Position numbers and translations under genes: made by a program. Below the pieces are notes generated by a model that had not been told where the DNA came from, did not search any database, and saw only the letters and a list, made by a program, of their open reading frames with translations. Positions 1 through 30,849 of a DNA stretch of 54,119 nucleotides are shown here, in pieces (the first letter of the stretch is position 1; every line of letters begins with the position of its first letter). The stretch is from a virus. The stretch spans positions 1 to 54,119 of IMG/VR virus record IMGVR_UViG_3300022939_001635; one strand, 5' to 3'.

Positions 1-439
1 CACGGTGAAATGGCTTTACACGTTCTACGTAGTCTTCAAACCAACTCATCGGACGACTACAGTTTGATGTCATATGAACGCTAGTATAATTAGTATTGTT
101 GACATCATCAGCTAAGTGACCAAGTATGTCCAAGTACCCTGGATGAAAAGTAGGCTCGCCCCCAGACAAACTAAAATGAAAACTATTAAAACCGTTATCA
201 CGTGCTTGCTTCTTTATCTCGTCTATAGTTGTTAAACACAACTCTGTTGGTCTATGATCTTTACGGTCGCTACGGGCGTAAGGCCAGCAGTAACTACATC
301 TATAATTACAAAATCTGCCTAACAACCAAGACACTGTAAAAATATCTCTGTACAACAATGTACGTTGTCCTACTTGGACAATATCCTCAAATGGTATTTT
401 AGTGAAGTCATAATTACTCCATTTTAAATCTTCAGTCAT
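1..439 (-). CDS. Radical SAM protein, C-terminus outside window (partial)
   Basis: The frame is open from an ATG at 437-439 to the left edge, so about 146 N-terminal residues are visible. The translation has the radical SAM iron-sulphur motif CNYRCSYC at about residues 44-51 and the SAM-binding motif SGGEP near residue 91, about the usual spacing. The core starts at once, with no N-terminal Cys domain, so it differs from the dominant family of the array. Whether it has a C-terminal SPASM domain cannot be seen. It lies 6 bases after the SGNH-like gene at 446-1189 and shows that the operon continues beyond the window. The substrate is unknown. The family assignment is secure. Confidence 0.85.
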   Translation of the reverse strand, partial: MTEDLKWSNYDFTKIPFEDIVQVGQRTLLYRDIFTVSWLLGRFCNYRCSYCWPYARSDRKDHRPTELCLTTIDEIKKQARDNGFNSFHFSLSGGEPTFHPGYLDILGHLADDVNNTNYTSVHMTSNCSRPMSWFEDYVERVKPFHR

Positions 440-445
440 ATTTTA

Positions 446-1189
446 TTATAACAGCCTATAGTTTTTTGTCAATACTTTTTGTCGTAAAAAAGGTAGCATT
501 ACTTTCTTAACATATTCTTTATGTTGTAATCTACTAGGGTGATGATCATTTTTGTGCTGATTTCTCCAAGGCTGCTGTGTATTTTTTATTAACCATTCAT
601 ATTGCGATTCTTCTATAAAATACGTATAATCAATCATGTCTTTCAAACGATCAGTTTGTATATGTTTATAGTCTTCAGCTTTCCAATCGTCTTTATACCC
701 AGCAAAAATATATCTTATATTGTTTAATTTTAAATACCATTGTAAAGCTAAAATAGCTTCATACGATTCTACTAAACTATATGTGGTATTATCATAATTT
801 TTATACCAATTTGTTATATATCTACTACGCATACCTCCGGTAGCTAAACACCAATATCCATTTACATCCTCTTCTGGCCATATAACAGGATTGACTGTAT
901 CAAATTTTTCAGAAGTTGTATTCAATACTTCGCCAACTTTATAATTGTAAAATTCTTTATCATCAAAATAAAACGATTTTCTACTCGAGCCGCTCCACAT
1001 AACTACTACCAAAACATCATTAAAATTATCGAACTGTTGTAATTGATGAATTACTCTTCTAGTAATCATAGGATTTGAAGCAGATCCTATTCCCACATTG
1101 TACAAATCAAATTTAATAATGTTGGCTAGATGATTTGGCCAAGTATAATCTCCTGCTGTAAAACTACAACCACCCGTCACTAAAAGCAT
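446..1189 (-). CDS. SGNH/GDSL-like protein
   Basis: A 247-residue protein beginning with a short hydrophobic strand and GGCSFTAG (residues 6-13), which matches block I of SGNH hydrolases (usually GDSxT) with Cys in place of Asp. A Gly-rich segment with Asn follows near residues 33-39 (GIGSASN), and DHHPS near residue 215 fits the DxxH block carrying the catalytic His. Such enzymes cleave ester or acetyl groups on sugars and lipids; which substrate applies here is unknown. There is no signal peptide, so it should be cytoplasmic. ATG is preceded by GGAG. It overlaps the end of the upstream radical SAM gene by 10 bases and is one of four SGNH-like genes in the operon. An esterase role is inferred from motifs alone. 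Confidence 0.55.
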   Translation of the reverse strand: MLLVTGGCSFTAGDYTWPNHLANIIKFDLYNVGIGSASNPMITRRVIHQLQQFDNFNDVLVVVMWSGSSRKSFYFDDKEFYNYKVGEVLNTTSEKFDTVNPVIWPEEDVNGYWCLATGGMRSRYITNWYKNYDNTTYSLVESYEAILALQWYLKLNNIRYIFAGYKDDWKAEDYKHIQTDRLKDMIDYTYFIEESQYEWLIKNTQQPWRNQHKNDHHPSRLQHKEYVKKVMLPFLRQKVLTKNYRLL

Positions 1190-2235
1190 TTTATCTCCTC
1201 AAACCATTCTGTAAATTCAGGTCTAATTTTAAGTATATTTGTACCCCGTACTTTGTCAAGGTCAGTAATCCATTTTACAAAATATTTTTGTAAATCTATA
1301 TCTTTTTTTCCTTGTGGGAAAAATTCTTTAGGTAAAACAGTGTGTACATTTAGCCATTCAGGTTTGTAAACAAAATTGCTGTTGTGTCTAACTTTGTGTA
1401 ATCCGTTGTCTTTCAACCATTTTATACCCTTTGCTGGTTGATCATATGTTACACAATGTATTGTATCAGCTATACTCATACTATGTACATTATCGTATAT
1501 TTTTGTCAATACATTTTTTACATCATCTAACTTGTGTATTCCACCTCTACTGTATTGATATACATCGTCTTCCCAAGCATCAACACTACAAAGTACATTT
1601 ATCCAATCAAATCTTTTAAAGATTTTTAAAAGATAGTCGTCAAAAAGAGTTGCGTTTGTTATAATTCTTAATTGTACTTCGGGAACACTTGTTGATAAAA
1701 ATTCTAAAAAATCTATAGCATCTTCTTGATACAATGGTTCGCCGCCTGAAATTTCTACTCCGCCTAAATTACGCCACCAATTTATATCTATTTCTTTCCA
1801 CCATTGATTGCCTATTGTGGTATGAGTTTCAATATGATAATTATAGCCGTATTGTTCGTTTAATTTTTTTTCATCTTTTATCCAAGCAGTACTTCTGCTA
1901 CTGCTACACATTATACATTTTAAATTACACTTATTACTAAAATCAATTTTTAAAAAAAACTTTTCACCATTTAATGTAATATCATTAATTTTTAAACGTT
2001 GACTTGTTCCAATGTTTTGCTCATTCTTTACACAAATATCACATGCACCAGGAATAGGTTGTGTTTCTAATATTTTGTATGCTTGTAAAAAATCTTGTTG
2101 CTGTGTTAATTTTACAAAATCTTGAGGTTTATCAAGTTTATAACTATGTCCAAGTTGAGGTATGCTACAACAAACTTGTGCTTTGTTATCATTTCTTAAC
2201 CATATGTGTTTTGATCCTGCTTGACAATATCTCAT
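1180..2235 (-). CDS. Radical SAM protein with N-terminal twitch-like Cys domain
   Basis: A 351-residue member of the expanded family. N-terminal cysteines at 4, 22-23 and the pair 65/68 (ACDIC), followed by ExxxGxSxR, look like a truncated SPASM (twitch) domain that could hold an auxiliary 4Fe-4S cluster. The radical SAM motif CNLKCIMC is at 103-110, followed by the family mark SxxW (115-118), and GGEP is at 164-167. A barrel strand SVDAWEDDVYQYSR and the C-terminal signature LDKVR with a following Pro also match the paralogues. The start ATG overlaps the preceding SGNH-like gene stop (ATGA). It is shorter than most siblings because the N-terminal aromatic motif is reduced. The substrate is unknown. 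Confidence 0.85.
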   Translation of the reverse strand: MRYCQAGSKHIWLRNDNKAQVCCSIPQLGHSYKLDKPQDFVKLTQQQDFLQAYKILETQPIPGACDICVKNEQNIGTSQRLKINDITLNGEKFFLKIDFSNKCNLKCIMCSSSRSTAWIKDEKKLNEQYGYNYHIETHTTIGNQWWKEIDINWWRNLGGVEISGGEPLYQEDAIDFLEFLSTSVPEVQLRIITNATLFDDYLLKIFKRFDWINVLCSVDAWEDDVYQYSRGGIHKLDDVKNVLTKIYDNVHSMSIADTIHCVTYDQPAKGIKWLKDNGLHKVRHNSNFVYKPEWLNVHTVLPKEFFPQGKKDIDLQKYFVKWITDLDKVRGTNILKIRPEFTEWFEEIKCF

Positions 2236-2990
2236 TTTAAGTTTTTTAATAGTTGTTTTTCTTTTAGAAAGTGTTTTTCTATTGTTTCTTTTTCGAATTG
2301 AAATCTGTCGATATCTACTTTTAATTCTTTGTATCCTGCATTTAATTGTCTAGATATTTCTTTTGCTAAAATTCTGTTGTTATCGCCTGTCAAATGATTG
2401 TATCTCATATCTATGATACCTTTTTTTTTATATTCCCAAATATTATAATGATCAAATACAGTTGCAGTTTCTTTCCATTGAATTTTATATAAATTATCTT
2501 CAGTATCAATTACATAAGGAAATGCATTTATACGAAATACTTTTGGATCTTTTTTTATATCTTCATAGATTAAATTGTAAATAATTTTATCTTTTTCAAC
2601 ATCCTGCATGTGTGCAAAATAATTTATAGCTGACTTAAAAAATAATTTTTCTTCTCCATTATGTAACTTTTCTTTTGCTATTGCAGAATCTATATTAGGT
2701 GCAGCTAAAACATAGCCTTCGTGGGTATTAGACATACGGCTTATTCTTGAATGATCTGTACAAACAAAAATAATTTTATCAAACTCATCTCTGTTTTCTA
2801 AATATTGTTTGTAACTATAATAAAAGCAAGTTCCCGGAACAGCAAAGTTTTTTATTTTCCATGACTTATACCGATCTCTTAAATAGTTAACCCAAGGTTT
2901 ACCAAAGTCGTCTAAGTACTTATAATTTTTGTATGCAGTGTATAACACTCTTTCGCTTGCAAAACTGCACCCAAAGATACCTAGTTTCAT
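2232..2990 (-). CDS. SGNH/GDSL-like protein
   Basis: About 252 residues from the ATG at 2990. A TTG five codons upstream (3005) is also open, but the ATG has GGAG nine bases upstream and forms an ATGA overlap with the preceding radical SAM gene, so I prefer it. The N-terminus has FGCSFAS (block I like, Cys instead of Asp), then NFAVPGT with conserved Gly, a THSR-like strand end (CTDHSR), and NHLTGDN near the C-terminus as a possible catalytic-His block. The similarity to the SGNH-like genes at 446 and 5339 is in the arrangement of these blocks rather than close identity. It lies between two radical SAM genes. Function beyond a possible esterase or acetyl transfer is not visible. Confidence 0.5.
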   Translation of the reverse strand: MKLGIFGCSFASERVLYTAYKNYKYLDDFGKPWVNYLRDRYKSWKIKNFAVPGTCFYYSYKQYLENRDEFDKIIFVCTDHSRISRMSNTHEGYVLAAPNIDSAIAKEKLHNGEEKLFFKSAINYFAHMQDVEKDKIIYNLIYEDIKKDPKVFRINAFPYVIDTEDNLYKIQWKETATVFDHYNIWEYKKKGIIDMRYNHLTGDNNRILAKEISRQLNAGYKELKVDIDRFQFEKETIEKHFLKEKQLLKNLK

Positions 2991-4162
2991 AAATGTTTTC
3001 TCCAATAGTTTTTTATTTCAGTAACAATATCTAACTCTTTTGCTTGTCTTACATTATCTAATTTGTCATTCCAATCAATGAAATGTTTTACAGCATCTAA
3101 ATCTTGAGGCTTTTCTAATTCTGTTAATAGATCAGGTAGATAAAATTGATTTGGAAATTTTTCTAAAAGTCGTTGGACCTGTTGTTTGCTTTTTTCTTTT
3201 ATGTAATCAGGTGCATGTCTAGCTTGTAATTGCTTAGGTCCAGTTAACACTCTATATTCTATCCAATGAGATCCGTCATCTCTAAAGATATCTGCTTCCC
3301 AGTTCCAAAAATCTTCTACATCTAAAATATTGTAAATTTGAAATGCACCGTTTACTGTTAAAAGAATATTTTCTTGTTCTACATTTTGTATTTCTTTAAT
3401 TTTTTTATTTAATTGGTCAAAATCATAATTATATGCACGTATATAATTGTAAATTTCACCCGTTGCATCAACACTTATATTTAAATGCAATTTTTTTAAA
3501 TTTTTCAACATATGTAATTTGTTTACATCTACTTTACTAGCATTTGTATTCACAGTAACATTTATTTTTCCTAGATCACAATAATCTTTGAGTTTATCGA
3601 AAAACTCGTATACGCTATTATCCATAAATGGTTCACCGCCGGTAATCCAAATTTGTCTTAGGTCAGACAAATCCTCACCAAATTCTTGCAAAAATTTATC
3701 TGTATCAACCTGTTGCTTTGGAGGAATAGGAACACGTCTAGCATCTATTTTTTTCCAATCTGGAATCCAAGCATTACTAAACCAAGGACCGCACATTCGA
3801 CATTTAAAATTGCATATATTGTTAAAGTTCATGTACAAATGGTAAATTTTATTTCTATCTATATCTAAATTAGATTGGTATATTCCAGTTTCGCCTAGAT
3901 ATTTTTCTTCTCGTTCTAACCATTTTTGTCTTTGACTTTTTATTCCGTTTTGTTCTTTGTAAAAACAACTTTCACAACCTACTTCATCCCAAGTTCCGTT
4001 AAGCATGTTTTTTCTCAAAGATTGAAATTCATTATTACTGTATGTTTTATGTTCAATTGGTCCCATGGACCCTAAACTCATCATACAACGAGAAACATAA
4101 TTGCCAGGATTAGCCGTTAATGTTACAAACGGCATTGGACAGTATGTTTTTTTATTAAGCAT
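2987..4162 (-). CDS. Radical SAM protein with N-terminal twitch-like Cys domain
   Basis: 391 residues. The N-terminal domain has Cys8 (YCPMPF), Cys26 (RCMM, where most siblings have CC) and the pair 63/66 (GCESC) followed by ExxxGxxSxR. The radical SAM cluster motif CNFKCRMC is at 117-124 with SNAW after it, and TGGEP lies near residue 175. SVDATGEIYNYIR and the C-terminal LDNVR match the family signatures. It overlaps the upstream radical SAM gene at 4155 by 8 bases and the downstream SGNH-like gene by 4. All cluster-binding residues for the radical SAM site are present, so it should be active. What it modifies is unknown. Confidence 0.87.
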   Translation of the reverse strand: MLNKKTYCPMPFVTLTANPGNYVSRCMMSLGSMGPIEHKTYSNNEFQSLRKNMLNGTWDEVGCESCFYKEQNGIKSQRQKWLEREEKYLGETGIYQSNLDIDRNKIYHLYMNFNNICNFKCRMCGPWFSNAWIPDWKKIDARRVPIPPKQQVDTDKFLQEFGEDLSDLRQIWITGGEPFMDNSVYEFFDKLKDYCDLGKINVTVNTNASKVDVNKLHMLKNLKKLHLNISVDATGEIYNYIRAYNYDFDQLNKKIKEIQNVEQENILLTVNGAFQIYNILDVEDFWNWEADIFRDDGSHWIEYRVLTGPKQLQARHAPDYIKEKSKQQVQRLLEKFPNQFYLPDLLTELEKPQDLDAVKHFIDWNDKLDNVRQAKELDIVTEIKNYWRKHL

Positions 4163-5342
4163 TTGTTATTTCCTTATAAAAACTTTGCCATTCTGGAAAA
4201 GTAGTACAAAAGTCTTGCCCTCGTGTTTGATCTAATTTGTTTATAAAAAACAAAAATTGTTCTTTTAACTGCATACGTTGTGTATTACTTTTGCGTGTTT
4301 GTTTATATTGATTTCTTAACCATTTTTTATATTTTATTTTTTTCTCTGTAACAACATTAGATTTATTTAATTGTTCGATAATATTTGCAAATTGTTTTTT
4401 TGGAAGATATCCTAAACTCATAAATTCTGGATTTGTAACACTGTTAAATCCAATGTTCACATGTTTATATCTTTCCAAAACTTTTATCATGTGTTGAGCA
4501 TTAAGCCAAGATACACTACTCAAAAAAGATACATTTCCGTTGAAGTTTAAAAATTGTTCGATGTTATTTTCTACTTTTTTCCAATCATTTTTTCCACTGC
4601 GTAGATAATTATGTACATCTTGCATTCCATCGATGCTTAAACTAATATTTACTTTAGAAAAATTTTCTAATAGGCGAACAATATCTTTTTTACCGTATTT
4701 TATGAAACTAGCATTAGTGTTTATTAATATTTCAGTATCTAATTTATTTAAATTAATCATTTCTTCTAATAGCTGATATGTTCCTTCCATCATTAAAGGT
4801 TCGCCGCCTGCTAATTTTATATATCTAACATACGGCAAGTGCTGTTGCAAATCTTCCCAAGACACATTTGCTTCAATTAAACCAGTTTTATTATCATAGT
4901 TTTCTGGAACTTTATCTAACAATAAATGATCATTTAGCCAACTATTACTCGAAGATATACCGCAAAATCTACATTTATAATTGCATAAATTACTCCATCG
5001 AATATCTAACCATTCTAATTTAAAATCTTCGTAGGTGCCATCTTTTTGTGTATTTTTTATATAGTGTTTTTTTCTGTCATTAAACACTTTATTTGCTTGT
5101 GTTCTTAAACTAAATCCTTTTACTTTTTCATCTCTATAACATTCATCGCATCCTGGTAAATGTTCATCTGAGTCTAAAACTTTTTTCCTTAAATCTTTTA
5201 AAACACTGTTAGTAGCGCCGACTTTGTTTATGGTGTCATCCATATCAAAGTAACTTTTATGAACACAACAAGGTTTAGTCATTGTTTTATCTTGCGAAAA
5301 AATAAAATGATTCCATAAAAGTGCGCAATAATTATTTTTCAT
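4155..5342 (-). CDS. Radical SAM protein with N-terminal twitch-like Cys domain
   Basis: 395 residues. Cys6 (YCALLW), Cys25-26 (PCC) and Cys65/68 (CDEC) form the N-terminal Cys set, followed by SLRTQ. The radical SAM motif CNYKCRFC is at 119-126 with SNSW after it, AGGEP near 179, a SIDGMQDVHNYLR strand, and a C-terminal LDQTRGQDF...FPEW tail. The middle of the C-terminal third is Lys/Arg/Gln rich (about residues 330-370), unlike most siblings. It overlaps the preceding SGNH-like gene by 4 bases (ATGA). The radical SAM assignment is secure. The auxiliary cluster is inferred from cysteine spacing. Confidence 0.87.
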   Translation of the reverse strand: MKNNYCALLWNHFIFSQDKTMTKPCCVHKSYFDMDDTINKVGATNSVLKDLRKKVLDSDEHLPGCDECYRDEKVKGFSLRTQANKVFNDRKKHYIKNTQKDGTYEDFKLEWLDIRWSNLCNYKCRFCGISSSNSWLNDHLLLDKVPENYDNKTGLIEANVSWEDLQQHLPYVRYIKLAGGEPLMMEGTYQLLEEMINLNKLDTEILINTNASFIKYGKKDIVRLLENFSKVNISLSIDGMQDVHNYLRSGKNDWKKVENNIEQFLNFNGNVSFLSSVSWLNAQHMIKVLERYKHVNIGFNSVTNPEFMSLGYLPKKQFANIIEQLNKSNVVTEKKIKYKKWLRNQYKQTRKSNTQRMQLKEQFLFFINKLDQTRGQDFCTTFPEWQSFYKEITNA

Positions 5343-6049
5343 AATAGTATTCCTGTTTGTGATAAATCTTTTGTAACAGTAAAATACTTATTCACATTAT
5401 CTTTACTTATAATGTCATTTATGTTTAAATTTCCTTTTATATGTTTTACAAGATAATTTGCAAATTCTTTGTTTTGCTTTAAACTCATATGACAAGGTCT
5501 CAATTTGTTATCTTCAACACCTGAATACTTGGCTTTGTTTTTGTCTTCAAAATGATAATGATAATCTAATGATTGTATATTTTTTAAATTACTATCAGTA
5601 AAATCATCAAATGCATATAGTAACAAAATATTTGGATCATTAAATTGTAAACTATCAATGATGCTTTGTATATAAATTTTTTGATTGTTTGGATAATGAG
5701 AAACTTCAAACATTTTATTTTTATAGATTTTTTTATCTACATTGCTTAAATTATAGTTATATCTTTGTGTATTATGTTCAATTGTTTCATTAATGTTACT
5801 AATTCTAGTAGTCCATAGATGATCAAAATTATCAAAAAAACTAAATCTGTTGCTGTGTGTTAAAACAAATATATTTTTTTCATAGTTTTTATAATTTTTC
5901 AAAAAAATAGAATATGAATATACTGCACTAGATGCAGAAACTGCAAAATTATCAATCTTTGTATTTAAATTTTTTTCTAATAATTTTGGCCATGCTTGCA
6001 CATTACTTCCACTGTCTGCAAAACTATCGCCATAAATTGCTATACTCAT
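5339..6049 (-). CDS. SGNH/GDSL-like protein
   Basis: 236 residues. This is the clearest SGNH protein of the window: IYGDSFADS at residues 5-13 is the canonical GDS block with the nucleophile Ser, NFAVSASS near 34-41 supplies the Gly/Ala-Asn region, LTHSNR near 83-88 follows a hydrophobic strand, and CHMSLKQN near 187 can provide the catalytic His. No signal peptide is seen. It is coupled by 4-base overlaps to radical SAM genes on both sides. The family removes acyl groups from carbohydrates or lipids, and in glycan clusters such proteins may also transfer acetyl groups. The activity here is inferred. Confidence 0.6.
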   Translation of the reverse strand: MSIAIYGDSFADSGSNVQAWPKLLEKNLNTKIDNFAVSASSAVYSYSIFLKNYKNYEKNIFVLTHSNRFSFFDNFDHLWTTRISNINETIEHNTQRYNYNLSNVDKKIYKNKMFEVSHYPNNQKIYIQSIIDSLQFNDPNILLLYAFDDFTDSNLKNIQSLDYHYHFEDKNKAKYSGVEDNKLRPCHMSLKQNKEFANYLVKHIKGNLNINDIISKDNVNKYFTVTKDLSQTGILL

Positions 6050-7215
6050 ATAAAATATTCCGTAAATTCTGGTACAATATGTATTAAACTTTGTTTTCTA
6101 CTTTTATCTAGTTGAAATGTGTAATCGATAAACTTGTCAAACTTATCGCTCCAGTCTTCTGCATACATATAATCAATTATGCCTTTTACTTTTGGAGTGT
6201 CTAAGTAAGGCATTAAATTTTCAAATGCTTTATCTTTAAGTTCAGGAGGTAACACTCTTATGTTAAGTTGCTCTGGATGATTTAAAATATTAAAATATAT
6301 TTTATGTTCATAAGGTAATGCCCACTCAATAAACTTATGTAAATGCAAAATATTGTACATTTGCACAGTACAGTGTATTTCAATATTTACTTTTCCTCTA
6401 TTTCTTACTTTTTTAAAATTTTGCTCAATTTTTATCCAATTACTTGGATATCTAATATATCTATCTAATGCTCCAATTCCGTCAATACTACAGTTTAATT
6501 GGATTTTTTTAAATTTATTCCATTTGTTTAACATTTTGTCTGGAATATTTGTTAAATTTGTATTATATTTTAATTTTATTTTATTTGATGTACCTTTTTC
6601 AATATAATAATCTAACAAACGATACTGTTCTTCGATAATTGTAGGTTCACCACCAGTTAAATATATTTCTTCAACCGAATCCGCTATCAATTCTAAATTG
6701 TCCCAAACCAAATCATTTGATGGCCAATCCATATTTTTTAATCTATTATACTCGCTTTCTTCTAGTGCATTTTCAACTAAGTGCCATTCTTTAACCCATT
6801 GATTACTTGCGTATGGATTGCACATACGACATTTTAAGTTACATAGATTTCCTAAACGTATATCAACATAACGTATAGTGAACGGTGCTTCTACAGTATA
6901 ATCTCTGTCTTGCGCCCATTTGTCATTCCAATTTTGTCTAGTGCTTGTTATACCAGCATCTTCTTCTCTAAAACAACGTGTACACATTTCAGGACGTTCG
7001 CCATTTAACATTTGTTGACGTATAGTTTTGTACGTTTCACTATTCCATGCTTCTTTGATGTTGTCTTTGTATATCCGATATCTTGTGCCATCTTCTTTGG
7101 TGATAAAATTCTTTCCAGGAGTGCTGTTACAGCATACACGTAAAATGCCACTGGCACTGGTTGCTAAACTCATCCACGGTAAAACACAAAATGTATCGCT
7201 AGGATTTTTTGTCAT
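6046..7215 (-). CDS. Radical SAM protein with N-terminal twitch-like Cys domain
   Basis: 389 residues and a good type member of the family. FCVLPW (Cys10), VCC (28-29), a segment AWNSETYKTIRQQMLNGERP typical of SPASM/twitch regions, CTRC (78/81) and EEDAGITSTR come first. The radical SAM motif CNLKCRMC is at 125-132, then SNQW, TGGEP near 192, SIDGIGALDRYIR, and the tail FIDYTFQLDKSR...VPEF. It overlaps the upstream cobalamin-type radical SAM gene and the downstream SGNH-like gene by 4 bases each. All expected cluster ligands are present. The substrate is unknown. Confidence 0.9.
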   Translation of the reverse strand: MTKNPSDTFCVLPWMSLATSASGILRVCCNSTPGKNFITKEDGTRYRIYKDNIKEAWNSETYKTIRQQMLNGERPEMCTRCFREEDAGITSTRQNWNDKWAQDRDYTVEAPFTIRYVDIRLGNLCNLKCRMCNPYASNQWVKEWHLVENALEESEYNRLKNMDWPSNDLVWDNLELIADSVEEIYLTGGEPTIIEEQYRLLDYYIEKGTSNKIKLKYNTNLTNIPDKMLNKWNKFKKIQLNCSIDGIGALDRYIRYPSNWIKIEQNFKKVRNRGKVNIEIHCTVQMYNILHLHKFIEWALPYEHKIYFNILNHPEQLNIRVLPPELKDKAFENLMPYLDTPKVKGIIDYMYAEDWSDKFDKFIDYTFQLDKSRKQSLIHIVPEFTEYFI

Positions 7216-12178: not shown

Positions 12179-12189
12179 TTTATTTCCCT

Positions 12190-18097: not shown

Positions 18098-18644
18098 GCC
18101 ACATTTCCGGTTGCATAGGATCAATACTCAATTCATTAATATTTAAATGTTTTGGTTGATCAACAATCCATTTAATGTAGCTTGCAGCTACATCTATATC
18201 CATACACTTTCTATCTGGATGTTTTTTTTGGTTGTTGCTTAGTGTACCAAAACTGATATATGTGATTTTAGGGCCGCTTGCCCATACACCTGTTAATCCT
18301 AGTGTATTTGAATAATCACGCAATGCTTTCTTTTCTGCATTGTACAGCCAAGCACCGCCTTTTTTTACTCGGTCAGTTGTACTACCTATATTGATAATAT
18401 GACAGTTGTGTTTTTCTAACACACATTTTTTATAAACAATATCTAACAAACTGGTTTGATTAAATCTAAACAATGCACTGCAATTTATAAAAATATCGTG
18501 TGCCAATACTGCTTCTGCACAACGTTCCATATCTAATTTTTTACCAAAATCATAACCTGTTTCTCTGCTGATAAATTCAGCATTAGGATATATTTTTGCT
18601 AAAGATGCAGCAAGTCCTTCATTGGCATTACCTGTTATAATCAT
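18081..18644 (-). CDS. Short-chain dehydrogenase/reductase-like protein
   Basis: 187 residues, shorter than the usual 240-260. ITGNANEGL at residues 3-11 sits where the TGxxxGxG dinucleotide motif is expected (altered Gly spacing). HDIFINCSA corresponds to the NxAG strand, HIINIGST to the catalytic Ser strand, and YNAEKKAL (about residues 122-129) to the catalytic YxxxK. The C-terminal part after the active site is shortened. An NAD(P)-dependent oxidation or reduction of a sugar or alcohol is the family role, but the substrate is unknown. It overlaps genes on both sides by 17 bases, keeping it inside the radical SAM operon. Confidence 0.6.
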   Translation of the reverse strand: MIITGNANEGLAASLAKIYPNAEFISRETGYDFGKKLDMERCAEAVLAHDIFINCSALFRFNQTSLLDIVYKKCVLEKHNCHIINIGSTTDRVKKGGAWLYNAEKKALRDYSNTLGLTGVWASGPKITYISFGTLSNNQKKHPDRKCMDIDVAASYIKWIVDQPKHLNINELSIDPMQPEMWHEEDT

Positions 18645-22762: not shown

Positions 22763-24152
22763 CAAATATGTCCTTCATATCAGGAAATACTTCTGAAAAA
22801 CTGTTACCACGTTGAGCATCGCATCTTTGTAAAAATTCCTCCATCTCTGGCAAACGTCTACTCCAGTCTTCGCTTTCCATAAAACTTAACATGCCTTTTA
22901 GTCGTTTTATACCATAAGGTGCAGCATCAAACATGTCTTTAGTAATCTTGCCTTTGTGCCAAACAGGCACACCAAGTTCCCAGTTTTCTTCCCACCAAGG
23001 ATAAAATTCTTCATATTTCTTACGCACTTCTGCTTTAAACCATTCTGGTAATACTTTTACATTCAAGTGTGGCGGATGATACACAAAGTGATAATTTATT
23101 CCACCTGCACCAAATGGCCACATATTGATTTTGTTAAAGTTTTGTGTTAGTTTCCATTTTATAAAGTCTGGCAAATAATAAATGTTTAGAGCTTGTACTG
23201 CACAAGCAATTGTAACTTCTACATTATTGCTTGTTTCTTTATCTAATATATGAAATACTTCTTCTGTGCGTTTCCACTTACTTGGGTAACGAATATAATC
23301 ATTCATTTCATGTATGCTATCTACACTATAATGAAAACGCACTAATTTAAATTCTTTCCATAAATCAAATAAGTCTTCACGCCACTCTACACCATTTGAG
23401 TTATAACGCAGTTCCAAATCTTTTGCTATACCTTGACGTATTGCTTCTTCAAGTATTTCATAATGTTCTTCAATGATAAGACTTTCGCCGCCTGCAAAAT
23501 AAATTTGCTGCATATTTGGCATTTGCTCATAAAACTGTTCCCAGAACACAGGATTTTGCTTGTGCCAGTTGTAACTACTGCCATTGGTGCTGCCTTTGTC
23601 TTGCCATTGCATTGTTTCTTTTAAAGATTCATTTTTTACTTCTGGAAATATCTTTTTGTAGTCTTTAATCCATCCGCTTGAATCGTGTGGGCTACACATT
23701 ACACAAGCAAGTTGACATTTTGTACCAAAACGTAAATCAATATATGCTAATTGCGGTGGTACTTCTCCGTCCTCAGTTGTATTTGCAAGAAGTTCATCTA
23801 CATTAGTTCTTTGACTCCAGTATGCAGTTTCCCACATACGTTTGGAATTGTGTCCTGCTTCTTCTTCTTTGTAACACTTTAAGCAACTAGGTGGCTTTTC
23901 ACCGTTCATCATTTGCTTGCGCACATTTTTCATATATTTGCTGTTCCAAGCAGTTTGAAAATCTGTAACATTTAAGTTGTTTGGTTTGCCGTCATCTGTT
24001 TTGAGAATACCAACTTGTCCGCCGTGTTCTTTGTCATTGGTAGGGCCAACACTTGATGCATTTGCTGTACAACACACACGCATACTACCGTCTGGCCTTG
24101 TACTTAGATGCACCCAAGGAAGGATGCAGAATGTATCACTAACTTTAGTCAT
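22752..24152 (-). CDS. Radical SAM protein with N-terminal twitch-like Cys domain, GGES variant
   Basis: 466 residues, the longest sibling. FCILPW (Cys9), VCC (27-28), AWNSKYMKNVRKQMM, CLKC and EEAGHNSKR form the N-terminal domain. The radical SAM motif CQLACVMC lies near 151 with SSGW after it. The SAM motif is AGGES, not GGEP. SVDSIHEMNDYIRYP and the tail CDAQRGNSF...FPDM follow the family. Like the gene at 15630 it has extra segments before GGE and in the last third. It overlaps the upstream SGNH-like gene by 8 bases and the downstream PP-loop gene by 11. Likely active; substrate unknown. Confidence 0.87.
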   Translation of the reverse strand: MTKVSDTFCILPWVHLSTRPDGSMRVCCTANASSVGPTNDKEHGGQVGILKTDDGKPNNLNVTDFQTAWNSKYMKNVRKQMMNGEKPPSCLKCYKEEEAGHNSKRMWETAYWSQRTNVDELLANTTEDGEVPPQLAYIDLRFGTKCQLACVMCSPHDSSGWIKDYKKIFPEVKNESLKETMQWQDKGSTNGSSYNWHKQNPVFWEQFYEQMPNMQQIYFAGGESLIIEEHYEILEEAIRQGIAKDLELRYNSNGVEWREDLFDLWKEFKLVRFHYSVDSIHEMNDYIRYPSKWKRTEEVFHILDKETSNNVEVTIACAVQALNIYYLPDFIKWKLTQNFNKINMWPFGAGGINYHFVYHPPHLNVKVLPEWFKAEVRKKYEEFYPWWEENWELGVPVWHKGKITKDMFDAAPYGIKRLKGMLSFMESEDWSRRLPEMEEFLQRCDAQRGNSFSEVFPDMKDIFDGR

Positions 24153-24885
24153 TTACTGCCTTTTCTATCATAGGTTTTATATACACTTCAACTAATTCAT
24201 ATTGTGCTTCATTTGTTAAATGGGCTTCGTCTGGTCCAATATGTTCTCGTTTTTTATTACCTTTTATATTTCTAAAATATTCTAATGCACTAGGTATAGT
24301 ATGATGATCGCCTACTCTACCTGGTCGTGGATCATACACCCAAACTATTGGACGTATTTTTAAATGTTTACAAAGTGTTTTTGTTGCATGAACATCAATA
24401 AGACCTTGCATATAGAATTGTTTTGCTCTTACCAACATTAGGTTAATATCACACCAAGTTTTTGCTTTTTTAAGCGGAACATCTCCTAATACTGTATTTT
24501 TCCAACGTTTTTCATTCAACCACGGTGTATAATAGACATTTCTGTGCTTCATAAATCTTGGATAAAAGTTTTTAATTTTGCTCGGATCTTGTCCAACTTC
24601 TCTTTCCATTTTATCAAACCAGTATGAACCATCATGGAAACTTTTGTGTGTTCTATTTTCTACATTTTCAATTAACAGGTGAGTAATATTATATGTTTCT
24701 TTCAAATAAACAGTATATTGTAAAAAACGTTCACTTCCAAAACCTTGGAAAGCACAATTTATAAAATCATAATCGGGCATAAAATGTTTACACACATCTG
24801 CCATGTCATCACTCACTTGATTAGAGTCTTGATGATTATTTCCTTTACTGTTGCTACTACCAATTATTCCAACTTTAATGTCCAT
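24145..24885 (-). CDS. SGNH/GDSL-like protein
   Basis: 246 residues. VGIIGSSNSKG at 5-15 occupies the block I position (GSS instead of GDS), NCAFQGFGSERFL near 43-55 supplies a Gly/Ser region, LLIENVENR follows a strand, and GPDEAHLTNEAQ near 221 fits the terminal DxxH block. No signal peptide. It sits 11 bases after the preceding radical SAM gene, one of few real gaps in the operon, with no strong ribosome site (TAAGTACAG). An esterase or acyltransferase role is inferred from the block pattern, and the residue changes leave room for loss of catalysis. Confidence 0.5.
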   Translation of the reverse strand: MDIKVGIIGSSNSKGNNHQDSNQVSDDMADVCKHFMPDYDFINCAFQGFGSERFLQYTVYLKETYNITHLLIENVENRTHKSFHDGSYWFDKMEREVGQDPSKIKNFYPRFMKHRNVYYTPWLNEKRWKNTVLGDVPLKKAKTWCDINLMLVRAKQFYMQGLIDVHATKTLCKHLKIRPIVWVYDPRPGRVGDHHTIPSALEYFRNIKGNKKREHIGPDEAHLTNEAQYELVEVYIKPMIEKAVND

Positions 24886-24896
24886 ACTGTACTTAG

Positions 24897-25940
24897 TTAA
24901 TTATGTACGTAGTTTATTTCATTATGATATGCTTTGTTTTTTGCACATGTTCTAATACACCTAGTAAAATGCAACGGATGTGTAGGTTCCCAACTTGCTT
25001 CTAAAAGTTCACTAAACCATTCATGTTTCTGTATTTCTTTTATACTATGATGTTGTAAACTATTCCAATTTGGATCAAAGTGATTGAGTTTATCAACAAT
25101 TCTCTCTTTGTTTTTAAATGCACTATCCCACAAAAAACAACAAGGCCACATAGTTTGATCACTTGCTATAAAAATTTCATTTTCATGAATGTACTTGCAA
25201 ACAACAGTTTTTAATATTTCTTCAGTATTTTTTCTGTCTGCTTTATTTGCCTTATATTCTGTAATAAATTTATCTAAATCTTTTACAACATCTTTTTTAC
25301 TGTGTTCTTTTTTACCTGTTGTTGTAATTTTTTGTTCTACTTTGTTGTCTTTTTTTCCAAGTTTTGCAATCCAATCATGATAACTGTTGCGCATACCTGT
25401 GCGAGTTGCAAATTCAAATCCTAATACTGCTGCATTTGCTTTGGCTGTTGCTAGTTCATGTTCATTGTGATCAAATACAATGTATATCCAAGTGGCATGC
25501 TTTTCTGGTGCTGCTTGAGAAAATGCTATTATGTTACGTTCTACGATATTCCATTTGGTATTGACTCGATATATGTGATTTGTTTCTTTGTGTCCGTCTA
25601 TACAAAAATGTATGTGTACTAAACCAGGATGCTGTGCTGCTACATTTCCTAGTTCTGTCCACCAATTTGCTGTATTATACCCGCCGTTTGTGCTAACTTC
25701 ACAATAACCGCCCAAATCAGTTAAATATTTTATCATATCCAAAAAGTCAGGATTAACAATTGGATCTCCTAACACACCACAAAATTTAAATTCATATCCA
25801 GTGTAATCATGTGTAGGAAAAATACGTTGTAAATCTGCTAAACTAAAACTATTGATTTGTAGTTTGTCTTTGTTAAGTGTTCTAGCACAGCCAGGACAAG
25901 CTGCATTGCAATCACTGGTAATTTCTAGTTCTACTTTCAC
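24897..25940 (-). CDS. Radical SAM protein with C-terminal SPASM-like region (GTG start)
   Basis: 347 residues from a GTG at 25938-25940 that overlaps the upstream stop (GTGA), with GGAG ten bases upstream. The radical SAM motif CNAACPGC is at 11-18. The usual GGEP is replaced by GVLGDPI near 55, shared with the next gene upstream. STNGGY and IHFCIDG follow. The C-terminal part has CKYIHENEIFIASDQTMWPCCFLW and later RCIRTCAKN, which reads as a SPASM-like auxiliary cluster domain. It is a paralogue of 25937-27016 and both are unlike the N-terminal-Cys family. Function unknown. Confidence 0.82.
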   Translation of the reverse strand: MKVELEITSDCNAACPGCARTLNKDKLQINSFSLADLQRIFPTHDYTGYEFKFCGVLGDPIVNPDFLDMIKYLTDLGGYCEVSTNGGYNTANWWTELGNVAAQHPGLVHIHFCIDGHKETNHIYRVNTKWNIVERNIIAFSQAAPEKHATWIYIVFDHNEHELATAKANAAVLGFEFATRTGMRNSYHDWIAKLGKKDNKVEQKITTTGKKEHSKKDVVKDLDKFITEYKANKADRKNTEEILKTVVCKYIHENEIFIASDQTMWPCCFLWDSAFKNKERIVDKLNHFDPNWNSLQHHSIKEIQKHEWFSELLEASWEPTHPLHFTRCIRTCAKNKAYHNEINYVHN

Positions 25941-27016
25941 TTAAACTGCGCTCCAAACGGATCAAACTCTTTACCACATTTCATACTACACACTTTTAAT
26001 TTGCCATCAGCACAACTCGACTTGTTCCAACTGTTTTCTATGTTATCAAATATACCTGTGTCAAACACTGCACGTAATCCATGAGTCTTAGCACTGATTG
26101 CATCTTTGCCGCCTACAGCATCAATAAAGTCCCATACTTGTTCTACCTTAGGGTCTTTGTGCCACCACTTGTACATGCGTCCGGCAGTCCAACAACAAGG
26201 CATAGCAAGTCCTTCTGCTGTTATAAACAAGTTACCTTCGTCTTTTACTTTACATTGTATTTCAGCACGATCATAATATGCATCCATACTACCGTGTTTG
26301 TCTTTTACTTTGTCGTACTGTTTTATTGCATCATTTTGAAACTCTTCTTTTGGCTTAGATAACTTTTGTGTTTCTTTGCCTTTGCGATTTACCGCTTGAT
26401 GCGATTCTTTCTTTTCACTGCTGGCGGTGACAAATCTTCCTGTTTTCTTTTTTATAAATCTTTCACATCCCCAAGAATTTGCTAATGCTTCTGCTTCTTC
26501 AACTTGATGTTGGTTGTGTTCAAATATTAGAAAATCCCAACGTGCTCTTCCACCAGCATCTATAAATGCCCGCATATTGCGTTCTACATTGTCCCAGACA
26601 ACACCCTGCCTGTATAAATGATTAGTGTCACTAAGACCATCCACGCTGAAAATAACAGCACCCATTCTACCAAAGACTTTGGCCAATTCACGCCACCACG
26701 CTTCATCTTTTGCTCCTGCATTTGTATTCATACTGAGCCACATTTTACTGTTATGCTCTCTAAAGTATTTGAATATATCAAGTGTATCACGGGCAACAAT
26801 AGGATCTCCTAAGTTGCCACACATATACATAGTTTCAAGTTGTGCAATAAATTCTGGTTCAAAAATACGCTTACAATCATCTAAGGTTAATTCGCTTAAA
26901 TCAATATGTGGATTTAATGCTCCGCCATTTTGATTGCGATCACACATTGGACAACTTGCTTGACAATTTTGTGTGTTTTCTAAGTGAATAACACGTATAT
27001 CTTTATAATTATACAT
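25937..27016 (-). CDS. Radical SAM protein with C-terminal SPASM-like region
   Basis: 359 residues. The radical SAM motif CQASCPMC is at 18-25. GNLGDPI near 68 replaces GGEP. MNTNAGA and IFSVDGLSDTNHLYRQG follow in the barrel. The C-terminal third has IQCKVKDEGNLFITAEGLAMPCCW and later CADGKLKVCSMKCG, a SPASM-like Cys set. A Lys-rich linker (about 185-235) separates the two domains, as in its paralogue at 24897. It overlaps the 74-residue gene upstream by 8 bases. The radical SAM assignment is firm; the reaction is unknown. Confidence 0.82.
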   Translation of the reverse strand: MYNYKDIRVIHLENTQNCQASCPMCDRNQNGGALNPHIDLSELTLDDCKRIFEPEFIAQLETMYMCGNLGDPIVARDTLDIFKYFREHNSKMWLSMNTNAGAKDEAWWRELAKVFGRMGAVIFSVDGLSDTNHLYRQGVVWDNVERNMRAFIDAGGRARWDFLIFEHNQHQVEEAEALANSWGCERFIKKKTGRFVTASSEKKESHQAVNRKGKETQKLSKPKEEFQNDAIKQYDKVKDKHGSMDAYYDRAEIQCKVKDEGNLFITAEGLAMPCCWTAGRMYKWWHKDPKVEQVWDFIDAVGGKDAISAKTHGLRAVFDTGIFDNIENSWNKSSCADGKLKVCSMKCGKEFDPFGAQFK

Positions 27017-27233
27017 CGTATATCAACTTTACATCTTTACCAGGACCAGTTTTACTTGGCAAATCGCCATATTGCTCTATGTACCATTCAATAACTGCTT
27101 TGTACCAATTTTGACTATTATGATGTGCTTTTTTGTTAAACTGCCAAATGTTATTATTCGTTGCTTGCATGGTACTTAGAGCCCTTGCACTTTCTTTTTG
27201 CAATTGCCTAACATCTAAATCATTTATATCCAA
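27009..27233 (-). CDS. Small unknown protein (74 residues, TTG start)
   Basis: 74 residues from a TTG at 27231-27233, the only start that keeps the frame close to the upstream gene; AAAAGG lies ten bases before it. The protein has no cysteine, is rich in Asn, Gln, Trp and Tyr (IWQFNKKAHHN, WYKAVIEWYIEQYG), and ends with PSKTGPGKDVKLIYDV. I recognise no family. It overlaps the methyltransferase-like gene by 14 bases and the radical SAM gene by 8, so it is a coupled operon member. It could be an adaptor or a substrate of the adjoining enzymes, but nothing in the sequence proves either. Confidence 0.6.
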   Translation of the reverse strand: MDINDLDVRQLQKESARALSTMQATNNNIWQFNKKAHHNSQNWYKAVIEWYIEQYGDLPSKTGPGKDVKLIYDV

Positions 27234-28260
27234 TTTTCATAAACCTTTTGTATCTCGGTAGTTCTAACTCGCCTTCGTATAAAACTTTACTCATAGGTGA
27301 TTTTTCACTAAATTCATCTAATGTTTTACTACAATTTACATGTTCTTCTATTTCAAAATAATTATTTCCTTGCACTATTATTAGTTGTTTATCCAATATA
27401 TTATCATACCAGTTTTTATAATCTTCTATATGTTCTGTGCTTGTATTGATAACAGTATTAGGATAACCCCATAGTGTTTCAGTTGTTCCGTCTAATTTGT
27501 TTACATCATATATATGTTCTTCAAACATAATTTCGTGAATATCTTGTGTTGAAGCTTTAAACTTCCAATCTTCTAACACCCATTTTTTATTAAACGTTTC
27601 TGCAATTTTCCAAACAGTAGGATCGCTATCAAAACTAACAATTTTATTTACAGGTATTTTACTTTCAAAAAGCATTGTCGCTAGTGTAGCATACCAACCT
27701 GCACATAAAAATACTGTGCCTAAATTTAAGTCTAAATTTTCAACTGTATTTACTAACCAAAGTTTACTTTTTATTTGACCCTGACTAAGACAATCTTTAT
27801 CAAATTTAACTTTATTTGTAACTAAATCCTTTAAACCTTTTACAAAATAGCTATCGGTATATTTTTGTAAAAGTTTGAACATACTCCAAATATTATCATC
27901 TAAAACAAGTTTACGCAAATCTTCATTGTCTAACAATCTAAACAAACTGTGCATGTTGTCTTCAATAGTGGCTTTTCGTAAATCATCATTGCCTGGTAGT
28001 AATCTGAACAAACTGTGTAAATTATCTTCAAGAATTGCTTTACGCAGATCTTCAACTTCGCCAATACAGCGTTTATTGGTAATCAATCTAAAAATACTAT
28101 GAACATTTTTTTCAACTACAATTTTTCTTAATTCTTCATTATTGCAAAGTCTAAAAATACTAGATAAATCTTGATCAATGTATGCACGTCTTAAATCGCC
28201 AAAGTTATTGTCGTTTGGATTTAACAGTTCAAATCTATCTAAAATTTCATATAGTTCCAT
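27220..28260 (-). CDS. Repeat-bearing SAM-dependent methyltransferase-like protein
   Basis: 346 residues from the ATG at 28260, with AAAGGA upstream; a TTG one codon earlier is open. The N-terminal 130 residues hold five repeats of the form LRKxxxEDNxxSLFRLL. The C-terminal half looks like a class I methyltransferase: GTVFLCAGWYATLATML near 183-199 fits motif I, VSFDSDP near 210 fits the acidic end of strand 2, NTSTEHIEDYKNW near 268 fits motif IV, and LIIVQGNNY follows. The repeats may form a helical docking surface. It overlaps the glycosyltransferase-like gene upstream by 14 bases. The target of methylation is unknown. Confidence 0.6.
   Translation of the reverse strand: MELYEILDRFELLNPNDNNFGDLRRAYIDQDLSSIFRLCNNEELRKIVVEKNVHSIFRLITNKRCIGEVEDLRKAILEDNLHSLFRLLPGNDDLRKATIEDNMHSLFRLLDNEDLRKLVLDDNIWSMFKLLQKYTDSYFVKGLKDLVTNKVKFDKDCLSQGQIKSKLWLVNTVENLDLNLGTVFLCAGWYATLATMLFESKIPVNKIVSFDSDPTVWKIAETFNKKWVLEDWKFKASTQDIHEIMFEEHIYDVNKLDGTTETLWGYPNTVINTSTEHIEDYKNWYDNILDKQLIIVQGNNYFEIEEHVNCSKTLDEFSEKSPMSKVLYEGELELPRYKRFMKIGYK
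27871..28197 (-). repeat. Five tandem 17-residue repeat units in the methyltransferase-like gene
   Basis: Five in-frame units, at residues 23-39, 44-60, 72-88, 94-110 and 115-131 (counted from the TTG at 28263), share the pattern [DE]LR[KR]xx[IV]xx[DK]NxxS[ILM]F[RK]L. Unit spacing is 21-28 residues, so linkers vary while the core is fixed. At DNA level units three and four are most alike, suggesting recent duplication. The repeat likely forms paired helices. Confidence 0.85.
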
Positions 28261-29299
28261 CAAACTTTTCCTTTAACCAGTCAAAGTCGTTTATCTTTTT
28301 AAGTGCTTCTATATCATTTCTAAATCTTGCTCCATAAGCAGCACCTGCTTTGGCACCTTTTTTTGCAAACTCTGAAAATTCTACATCAGGCTTAGTATAT
28401 GTACACCATACACGCAACCTTGTGTTTGTTTCATCGTCTTTTTGTCTATCAATAATTTTACTCGACAATTTTACGCACTCTCTAAACGCACCTTTCCATG
28501 TGTTAAACGGATCACTATTAAAAGCAGTAATATTTGATACTTTATTTACGGCTACAAATTTATTACTAATACTTGTAGTCATATCAGGTTTTGTCAAATC
28601 CATTTCAATAGTTTGAGTTCTTGGTAGTAATTTTACGCCGCCGTATCCATATATCAATCCGTTAATAGGATTTTCACTACGCCATACATGAACTGCGTCC
28701 CAATTGTGTGCTTCAGGCGAATAATTAAAATGCCAATAATCAGTTAGTTGTGCATCGCCATCAACAACATAAAACATTCTACTATTACAAAGTTTAGCAG
28801 CTTCTATGTGTGCTTGGTGTATTCCTTTTACACCGTGTACACGTTTTACATCAGGAAAACGTTCTAGTATACGTTCATAATTTTCATCAGCATTTGGTTC
28901 ATTGTAACTGATAAACACTGCGTCAAATTTTTCTATACGAGGTCTACTAGCAACAATAGGTACAAATTTTTTGTTTACATAAAATCTTGACTTTAGTTCA
29001 CCGGGTCCGTGATGACTATTTTTTGGCATTAATGCAACACCGTCATAAAAGTCTTCTGTATAATACGGCCGTTCATTAATAAAAACGTGTGTCATGTCCT
29101 GACTATATTCATCAGGCACATATTTAAAATCAAAATTTTCGTGCACCACTAAGTCATGATAAACAATCCAAACAAATTTTGTTAAACATTTTTGTTTAGC
29201 TTCTTGTACTGTTTGAGCATGTTTTGCAGTAGGAAAACGTTTTTTTAGATTCCTGTAACTGCTCCAGTTTGATTGACCAATTAAATATATATCATACAT
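28247..29299 (-). CDS. Glycosyltransferase-like protein, first gene of the operon
   Basis: 350 residues. AVFISYNEPNADENYERI near 146-163, then VHGVKGIHQAH, and MFYVVDGDAQLTDYWHF near 195-211 give a GT-A type nucleotide-sugar fold with DGD as the DxD motif. NPINGLIYGYGGVKLLP and AFRECVKL are shared with the protein at 33827-34744, so both belong to one family. The N-terminal 140 residues are extra and not recognised. It is the first gene after the sigma-70 promoter at 29306-29334, and its ATG coincides with the predicted transcription start, with no ribosome site upstream. Sugar donor and acceptor are unknown. Confidence 0.6.
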   Translation of the reverse strand: MYDIYLIGQSNWSSYRNLKKRFPTAKHAQTVQEAKQKCLTKFVWIVYHDLVVHENFDFKYVPDEYSQDMTHVFINERPYYTEDFYDGVALMPKNSHHGPGELKSRFYVNKKFVPIVASRPRIEKFDAVFISYNEPNADENYERILERFPDVKRVHGVKGIHQAHIEAAKLCNSRMFYVVDGDAQLTDYWHFNYSPEAHNWDAVHVWRSENPINGLIYGYGGVKLLPRTQTIEMDLTKPDMTTSISNKFVAVNKVSNITAFNSDPFNTWKGAFRECVKLSSKIIDRQKDDETNTRLRVWCTYTKPDVEFSEFAKKGAKAGAAYGARFRNDIEALKKINDFDWLKEKFDGTI

Positions 29300-30812: not shown

Positions 30813-30821
30813 AAGTAAAGG

Positions 30822-30849
30822 TTGACTTACACAATATCTCTGTTATAAT
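30822..30849 (+). promoter_or_regulatory. Sigma-70 promoter of the adenylating-enzyme gene
   Basis: TTGACT (30822-30827), 16-base spacer, TATAAT (30844-30849). The ribosome site GGAGG (30867-30871) lies ten bases before the ATG at 30882. This places the pair 30882-32457 under host-type (early) control, separate from the late-promoter fibre gene just upstream. Confidence 0.78.

Follow-up and report, generated by a model that had tools for sequence, protein, structure and literature searches.

The window analysed here, a stretch of 54,119 nt (IMG/VR record IMGVR_UViG_3300022939_001635, positions 1 to 54,119), encodes 19 radical SAM (rSAM) proteins, 18 of them in a single gap-free unit of 29 kb and 30 genes (g01-g30, 1-29299, all on the minus strand) and the nineteenth, g34, at 32454-33827, also on the minus strand. 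As judged by comparison with related sequences, this operon beside tail-fibre genes is composed of a conserved, largely syntenic core and of variable rSAMs and small tailoring enzymes. Our best reading, put forward tentatively, predicts that the island is a protein-tailoring set decorating the tail and fibre proteins of the phage. If the virion is the target, this would be a new viral route to surface diversity through radical chemistry on proteins; if the host is the target, its cell surface would be remodelled in an unusually elaborate way. In both cases the island represents a large reservoir of uncharacterised rSAM enzymes.

Composition and integrity of the array

A preliminary description, made from the sequence alone, had counted 18 rSAM genes in 1-29299 and one more at 32454. 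All of them are present, the operon members being recognised by PF04055 matches and motifs; g27 was missed by a fast scan and recovered in a later one, and g26 and g34 match PF04055 below the Pfam cut-off with their motifs present. All 29 intergenic gaps between g01 and g30 are of 15 bp or less, mostly overlaps. CxxxCxxC is found in 19 of 19 rSAMs, and the further claim that each carries GGE or LGDP holds for 16 (GGE) and two (LGDP, g26 and g27), but not for the B12-type g09, which has neither. By type the set comprises 13 N-terminal twitch (N-twitch), three SPASM-type, two LGDP-type proteins and one B12-type protein. The N-terminal Cys architecture ascribed to twelve operon members occurs in exactly that number, and in g34 as well: C8, C26 and C78xxC81 (g17 numbering) are invariant in all 13, which thus combine CxxxCxxC, GGE and the N-terminal twitch Cys residues, the motifs of the N_Twi_rSAM family. 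Six of the 13 were taken into a scan with the corresponding model NF033640, and five exceeded its 170-bit cut-off (g05 240, g11 354, g22 189, g24 423.8 and g34 305.9 bits); g03 scored 150.9 bits, below it.

The separate SPASM-like gene of the preliminary description is g13 (12190-12576; weak Pfam match PF13186, E 0.019), located directly downstream of g14 (12569-13318), a short rSAM without its own SPASM domain, and the g14-g13 pair recurs elsewhere. Assignment of g14 to viperin (NF038283) was rejected at 54.8 bits against a cut-off of 180.

Two circumstances that would have deprived the array of meaning, inactivation of most copies and an assembly artefact, are largely excluded. Signs of inactivation are seen in none of the 19 rSAM copies, and the dN/dS of the tested genes (0.02-0.21, a rough range given that dS is above 1 in many cases) indicates purifying selection; an artefact is unlikely since the same gene order recurs in independent contigs. 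The rSAM paralogues share only 20-37% identity and most of them cluster with genes from other phages or from bacteria, so that a recent tandem expansion is not the origin of the set.

Conserved core and variable genes in relatives

The viral origin assumed in the preliminary description is borne out by tail fibre, collar and baseplate-type genes at 37-54 kb, and by relatives carrying the array and a T4-type Gp23 major capsid gene on one contig (6 of 17 and 5 of 10 relatives), the window fragment itself being without Gp23. Contigs bearing g01 reach 275 and 382 kb. The window, a 54-kb fragment, probably comes from the host-recognition region of a phage of the Gp23 type (T4-superfamily), which is probably a jumbo phage. 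The source phage is large, uncultured and aquatic. The gene g01 occurs in at least 544 IMG/VR stretches, relatives of g17 were found at 49 loci, and 50 related contigs (42-382 kb) carry 2-23 rSAMs each. No match to g01 was detected among 50,697 catalogued phage genomes, so it represents a common environmental phage trait unseen in the catalogued ones.

Conservation as a block applies to the core, which lies next to tail fibres in largely syntenic form, the remainder being combinatorial around the g01 anchor. The largely fixed order in relatives is tail fibres-g39-GT8-GT8-g36-g35-g30-g29-g27-g26-g24-g21-g17-g20-g01. The first gene of the unit, g30 (28247-29299), and g35 (33827-34744, minus strand) are GT-A glycosyltransferase-like; the fold of g30 is based on a family model made on g35 (AF2 pLDDT 87), with weak Foldseek matches to GT2-type enzymes. 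For g29 (27220-28263) a class I SAM-dependent methyltransferase fold with a helical-repeat N-terminus is predicted (AF2 pLDDT 93; best Foldseek match, to methyltransferases, E 6.9e-7), and homologues exist in Bdellovibrionota too. The core contains about six rSAMs: the LGDP-type g27 (25937-27016) and g26 (24897-25940), the N-twitch g24 (22752-24152), whose clade is shared with Bdellovibrionota, and g17 (15630-16952; 56-83% identity in most of the 49 loci), g20 (18628-19782) with a Cys-rich SPASM-like C-terminus, and the anchor g01 (2-439; PF04055, E 4.5e-12), a SPASM-type rSAM. The N-twitch g18 (16952-18124) and g22 (20589-21917) are often present as well, and identities to other phages span 46-97%. 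The remaining core member, g21 (19772-20596), is a PP-loop ATPase-like protein with SGGADS and a C-terminal CxxCxxC, and g23 (21914-22765) is its paralogue. In the window g01 is a 146-aa fragment, its C-terminal part lying beyond the left edge, 96.6% identical to an orthologue of 373 aa in the relative G001. The array had been thought to continue past this edge; it probably does not do so far, as g01 is usually the last or near-last array gene in relatives. In one related locus (L190) further rSAMs are present after g01.

Eleven rSAMs are accessory and differ between phages. Nine are of the N-twitch type: g03 (1180-2235), g05 (2987-4162; 50-59% relatives in seven viral contigs), g06 (4155-5342), g08 (6046-7215; 78% in G001), g10 (8680-9897; no match in the viral_contigs search), g11 (9872-11149; 70-74% in two other viral contigs), g15 (13315-14475), g16 (14462-15637) and g34 (95% in G001). 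The others are g14 and the B12-binding-type g09 (7212-8687; PF04055, E 1.8e-18), whose B12-binding match (E 1.1e-5) is below the cut-off and whose best NCBIfam model, TIGR04072, gives 97.8 bits against a cut-off of 360. Between the rSAMs lie genes for putative SGNH-like proteins, a reading based on motifs, namely g02 (446-1189; also DUF6071, PF19547, E 2.9e-8), g04 (2232-3005; a 21% relative in G001), g07 (5339-6049) and g25 (24145-24885; with relatives), a conserved, possibly SDR-like protein g19 (18081-18644; weak adh_short match, E 0.0055; 53-94% in phage relatives) and a small protein g28 (27009-27233; 86% in the nearest relative). Among the array-interior genes between the rSAMs of relatives (n=91) are matches to the nitroreductase (10/91), Asp/Asn beta-hydroxylase (9/91), methyltransferase and carbamoyltransferase families.

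The preliminary description had offered either a long biosynthetic pathway or a diversified set, and the comparison suggests both: the conserved, largely syntenic core looks like a fixed pathway, and the accessory rSAMs, changing from phage to phage, look like diversification. Since hundreds of viral contigs carry the same anchor with changing neighbours, the island is probably a mix-and-match chemical decorating system, most likely directed at the phage's own tail proteins or at the host surface.

Target of the encoded enzymes

Tailoring of virion proteins is suggested by synteny with tail fibres in relatives. In the window the operon is followed on the plus strand by g31 (29370-30812), a tail-fibre-like divergent insertion recognised by its repeats (29-45% in relatives), an AMP-binding (ANL) enzyme g32 (30882-31871; PF00501, E 2.5e-13) and a conserved protein without assigned function, g33 (31828-32457). 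On the minus strand lie the conserved GT8-like glycosyltransferases g37 (35287-36135) and g38 (36122-36955), assigned by motifs, the tail-fibre/collar-type genes g40-g44 (37350-44981), the structural protein g45 (44981-45583; phrog_11259, E 2.3e-68), 45-55% identical to jumbo-phage proteins of which some are annotated as baseplate, and a virion structural protein of 2832 aa, g46 (45610-54108; phrog_10938, E 1.6e-104; FG-GAP_2 repeats). Among g40-g44, g44 matches PF07484 (Collar), g42 and g44 belong to PHROG tail families, g43 was assigned by similarity, and g40 and g41 by position. The promoter type common to the operon and g40 points the same way: near-consensus sigma70-type promoters precede g30 (29334-29306), g01 (its own, 12/12), g32, g39 and g40, a consensus of at least 11/12 occurring in 0.6% of random 80-mers.

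Virion-protein tailoring is also consistent with g12 (11150-12178), in which a phage tail/short-tail-fibre-type helical domain (~1-130) is fused to a nitroreductase-like domain (~130-342). The fusion recurs, with homologues in other arrays, and the helical domain also occurs in short-tail-fibre and baseplate proteins of cyanophages (best E 2e-6), although it could be a generic helical domain instead. The nearest solved relatives of the window rSAMs, e.g. SkfB for the N-twitch type (E 1.4e-15) and a sulfatase-maturating enzyme for g01 (E 2e-4), largely modify peptides or proteins; the substrate class of an rSAM cannot, however, be read from sequence similarity. Further arguments are the tailoring families matched by genes between rSAMs in other arrays, and purifying selection combined with variation around the anchor. 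The enzymes would act inside the infected cell on newly made tail, fibre and baseplate proteins. Changes to side chains or backbone would fall to the SPASM- and twitch-type rSAMs, and carboxylate activation to the PP-loop and ANL enzymes; the oxidation state would be set by nitroreductase-like enzymes, joined in relatives by Asp/Asn hydroxylases, and capping would be the task of the glycosyltransferases and the methyltransferase. A common modification would come from the core, and from the swappable part a lineage-specific chemical surface, which may alter receptor binding or protect the virion. It is possible, if somewhat doubtful, that a widespread uncultured aquatic jumbo-phage lineage has a modular post-translational system, in which g01 and the core place a base modification on the tail proteins that bind the receptor. 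Exchangeable rSAM/SGNH/PP-loop cassettes would then diversify this modification, and fibre chemistry would be varied instead of, or besides, sequence.

The main rival, which we consider rather unlikely, is modification of the host cell surface, with sugars or a lipid-linked (O-antigen-like) glycan being tailored, e.g. against superinfection. Glycosyltransferases are among the core members, the anchor-plus-variable layout resembles surface-polysaccharide loci, and for GT8 in the similar host-recognition clusters of pelagimyophages a host-surface role, e.g. a superinfection block, has been proposed (PMC7029224). The Bdellovibrionota block, standing among GT2 enzymes with no tail-fibre genes nearby, fits a cell-surface product equally well; PagP, a lipid A acyltransferase, is annotated close to the rSAM mini-array of the cultured Vibrio phage K566, and the weak glycosyltransferase fold match also counts against protein tailoring. 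However, no Pfam family of an O-antigen-like locus (nucleotide-sugar synthesis, flippase, polymerase) was matched in the window, and one cytidylyltransferase was found among the 91 array-interior genes of relatives. The SPASM and twitch types, to which many of the rSAMs belong, have nearest solved relatives that act largely on peptides, and Asp/Asn hydroxylases and nitroreductase-like enzymes are atypical for glycan work.

Natural-product pathways draw on the same enzyme families (rSAM, PP-loop, ANL, methyltransferase, carbamoyltransferase), but a diffusible small molecule or RiPP-like peptide for host takeover or against competitors is quite an improbable product of the island: in an operon with no gap above 15 bp neither a precursor-peptide gene nor a conserved small peptide was recognised, the smallest gene, g28, is found only in the nearest relatives, and transporter, NRPS and PKS families are unmatched in the window and among the array-interior genes of relatives. 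Hypermodification of phage DNA (or tRNA) by QueC-like PP-loop proteins and rSAMs is very improbable. The SGGADS and CxxCxxC layout is shared by g21 and g23, g23 has a weak QueC-like match, and a QueC match also adjoins a bacterial array; against this, known DNA-modification pathway families (e.g. a thymidylate synthase homologue, deazaguanine genes) are unmatched within the 54-kb fragment, the locus is linked with tail genes, and the rSAMs are too many and too variable for a single base modification. Least probable of all is auxiliary Fe-S or viperin-like metabolism, or counter-defence producing modified nucleotides, as might be proposed from the viperin model being the best NCBIfam match of g14 and from the Fe-S gene sets and 12 rSAMs noted in a T4-like genome by Nishimura et al. 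(PMC5332604). The pairing of g14 with a SPASM-like protein, and the fact that most members belong to or resemble N_Twi_rSAM, speak against it.

Comparison with known systems

The N_Twi_rSAM family shares with the array the order of an N-terminal twitch Cys pattern followed by the CxxxCxxC rSAM core, whereas six window rSAMs are of other types. We know of no characterised member or product of this family, nor of rSAM arrays in mycobacteriophage virion glycosylation. In the latter, glycans are placed on capsid and tail proteins by much simpler gene sets (Freeman 2023, as cited in PMC12619734). Similar in layout are the host-recognition clusters of pelagimyophages (PMC7029224): in both cases a T4-superfamily phage carries tail fibres, GT8-type glycosyltransferases and rSAM cassettes together in one hypervariable island, as do the relatives of this locus. 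Here, however, relatives are as large as 382 kb and carry as many as 23 rSAMs, and there is a conserved rSAM/PP-loop/methyltransferase core with g01 as an anchor. The T4-like marine viral genome TARA_ERS488813_N000010 likewise has many rSAMs (12), discussed in terms of Fe-S metabolism, with no description of an array, core or combinatorial structure in the accessible part of that report (PMC5332604). T4-like marine phages with smaller rSAM sets were reported in 2017 and 2020, and the core-plus-variable rSAM architecture appears to be undescribed so far.

Several of the N-twitch arrays of Bdellovibrionota (L077, L091, L093, L108) encode homologues of g01 (58-75%) and g24 (58-64%) together with clustered homologues of g27, g17, g29 and the glycosyltransferases, but they are chromosomal and accompanied by GT2, Asp/Asn hydroxylase and other bacterial genes. 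The cultured Vibrio phages K566 and K567 (OZ196521, OZ196593) show only ~21-22% identity and no match to g01; their four N-twitch-type rSAMs, located among glycosyltransferase-like genes of a 255-kb phage, form a small version of the array that makes the question testable.

Content and integrity of the radical SAM array

In this linear IMG/VR virus record of 54,119 bp, searches with Pfam PF04055 combined with motif checks located the eighteen radical SAM (rSAM) genes claimed for the operon in a preliminary description, between positions 2 and 27,016, and the nineteenth at 32454-33827 (g34). The minus-strand unit holding the eighteen begins at 29,299, and its 30 genes (g30 to g01) are tightly packed, with the largest intergenic gap not exceeding 15 bp. 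The CxxxCxxC motif is present in all 19 proteins and GGE in 16 of them; g26 and g27 have LGDP instead and g09 encodes a B12-type enzyme. The common N-terminal Cys architecture ascribed to twelve operon enzymes was borne out and is also found in g34, and in these 13 rSAMs of the N-twitch type (with an N-terminal twitch Cys pattern) four N-terminal Cys residues are invariant. The separate SPASM-like gene is g13, adjoining the SPASM-less rSAM gene g14. Inactivation of most copies was rejected on the basis of intact motifs and dN/dS values of 0.02-0.21 in the genes tested (approximate where dS exceeds 1), and chance was discounted as the source of the array.

An assembly artefact joining several genomes is unlikely since the same gene order is repeated in G001, G002, L034, L044, L072 and other separate contigs. 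The order g17-g08-g01, which runs across the variable part, is kept in contig G001 at 83, 78 and 97% identity, respectively, and no second contig spans the same block for the junctions inside g02-g07 and g09-g16. Recent tandem duplication was rejected because the paralogues are 20-37% identical and belong to separate clades: a FastTree phylogeny built from 262 N-twitch sequences places most genes of the window apart from each other, with proteins of other phages and bacteria (support 99-100 for g24, g17 and g34, weak for some others), and g03 stands alone.

Conserved core, accessory genes and the g01 anchor

The question whether the array recurs as a block in other viruses was answered for its core, which is repeated in related contigs; the remainder is variable. 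With g17 as query, 49 loci were found, and in most of them the match has 56-83% identity; 30 contigs among them carry 2-22 rSAM genes each, and 20 further contigs found with g01 (79-382 kb) carry 8-23 each. Gene-content alignment defined the core as g27, g26, g24, g17, g20 and g01 with g21, g29 and g30/g35, often accompanied by g18, g19, g22 and g23, and the accessory set as g03, g05, g06, g08-g11, g14-g16 and g34. For g10, one of the accessory genes, viral contigs yielded no match. The shortest version of the island (the rSAM operon and adjoining glycosyltransferase genes beside the tail fibres), found at locus L040, is g39-g38-g37-g36-g35-g30-g29-g27-g26-g24-g21-g17-g20-g20'-g01. In loci L014, L016, L027, L069 and L072 the ORFs for glycosyltransferases of the g30/g35 type span about 540 aa, compatible with a tandem fusion of both domains. 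In the window g18, g19 and g21-g24 are 90-98% identical to L044/L049 and the adjoining g17 and g20 62-66%, so this step in identity may be read as a sign of cassette exchange.

At least 544 viral-contig stretches encode g01, and the genes upstream of it vary widely from phage to phage; of the 51 loci at which g01 has full flanks, 26 have g24 within reach, 17 have g17 and 14 have g27. Judged from these sequences, g01 is the anchor of the island. Among 50,697 catalogued phage records g01 had no match, and g24 and g11 matched only Vibrio phages K566 and K567 (about 21-22% identity), in which four N-twitch-type rSAM genes alternate with genes that are glycosyltransferase-like by inspection. In the 255-kb record of K566 (OZ196521), a possible laboratory model for the array, the four rSAM genes lie at 161.5-168.3 kb and PagP is annotated close to them.

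The 13-member N-twitch alignment was too divergent for the genome scan and a 5-member alignment was used. Twenty MAG or isolate genomes, mostly of Bdellovibrionota and with phage contigs present in some bins, contain 4 to 37 N-twitch genes each. A 916-kb Bdellovibrionia contig (L077) has more than 10 of them within about 30 kb, and one MAG genome of its group up to 37. At G036:C47:66525-69038 one 886-aa open frame with two N-twitch rSAM matches suggests a tandem fused enzyme. Bdellovibrionota contigs carry a block with g01 (58-75%), g24 (58-64%), g27, g17, g29 and glycosyltransferases, adjoining housekeeping genes recognised by inspection, e.g. HtpG- and SerRS-like. The distribution of g01 within Bdellovibrionota is patchy, since only 12 of 192 genomes have it in a sample which included several genomes already found by an earlier search.

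Tail-region setting and putative target

The products of g40-g46 are proteins of the tail fibre and collar, baseplate-type proteins and large virion proteins. With structural proteins from jumbo phages (e.g. Atu_ph07, Phosso and Munch) g45 shares 45-55% identity. The array lies on one contig with the Gp23 major capsid gene in G001, G005, G018, G022, G007 and G015, and five further array contigs have a Gp23 match above the cut-off. The window is therefore the tail-fibre region of a phage of the T4 superfamily, probably a jumbo phage. The contractile sheath model PF04984 had no match in 17 contigs, which is uninformative. The 2832-aa virion protein g46 (45610-54108) has FG-GAP_2 repeats, a sub-threshold chitin-binding-type (CBM_5_12) match and a stretch resembling structural proteins of Pseudomonas jumbo phages. 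A plus-strand insertion (29370-32457) splits two parts of the island and encodes a tail-fibre-like protein, an AMP-binding enzyme that is short at 329 aa, and a conserved protein.

Near-consensus sigma70-type promoters precede g30, g01, g02, g32, g39 and g40; as they precede both g30 and g40, the rSAM operon and a tail-region gene have the same predicted promoter type. T4-type late promoters were rejected: TATAAATA, the T4 late promoter sequence, occurs 0 times in 1-54119 versus 11.7 +/- 3.3 expected in shuffles, suggesting avoidance.

Among proteins of solved structure the N-twitch type is closest to SkfB and g01 to sulfatase-maturating enzymes; viperin, MoaA, BlsE and others come next. The g12 protein (11150-12178) fuses a cyanophage tail/short-tail-fibre and baseplate protein domain to a nitroreductase-like domain, and such fusions recur in arrays of other phages. 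Among 91 genes lying between rSAM genes in other phages 10 match nitroreductases and 9 match Asp/Asn beta-hydroxylases, with matches also to methyltransferases, a carbamoyltransferase, an Asn synthase and 2OG oxygenases. In the window g21/g23 have a PP-loop motif and a C-terminal CxxCxxC, g30/g35 are modelled with a GT-A glycosyltransferase fold (matches to GT2-type enzymes are weak), and g29 with a class I SAM methyltransferase fold after a helical repeat; PDB sequence searches gave nothing significant for the PP-loop, glycosyltransferase and methyltransferase families. The g29 repeats were rejected as a peptide substrate, the repeat part being a helical scaffold missing from many homologues.

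We tentatively favour the reading that the island enzymes would modify the phage's own tail proteins, because of the fixed fibre neighbourhood, the g12 fusion, the peptide-type rSAM relatives, the protein-type hydroxylases and the lack of polysaccharide-assembly genes. Modification of the host surface, somewhat unlikely in our estimate, follows closely because of the glycosyltransferases in the island and the bacterial contexts of related blocks. A diffusible product, DNA modification, and an Fe-S or counter-defence role are less likely than either.

Relation to described phage systems

Topic searches of the open-licence literature for phage-encoded radical SAM, or for radical SAM with tail-fibre modification, returned nothing, and no description of a conserved core, of the g01 anchor, of g01 abundance or of a combinatorial organisation was found there. 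Nishimura et al. 2017 (PMC5332604) reported 12 rSAM genes in a single T4-like marine genome, a pelagimyophage host recognition cluster with rSAM cassettes was described by Zaragoza-Solas et al. 2020 (PMC7029224), and glycosylation of phage virions is already known (Freeman 2023, as cited in PMC12619734). As far as this literature goes, the conserved core, the anchor g01 with its abundance and the combinatorial layout appear to be new here, and rSAM sets and cassettes in phages were known before.
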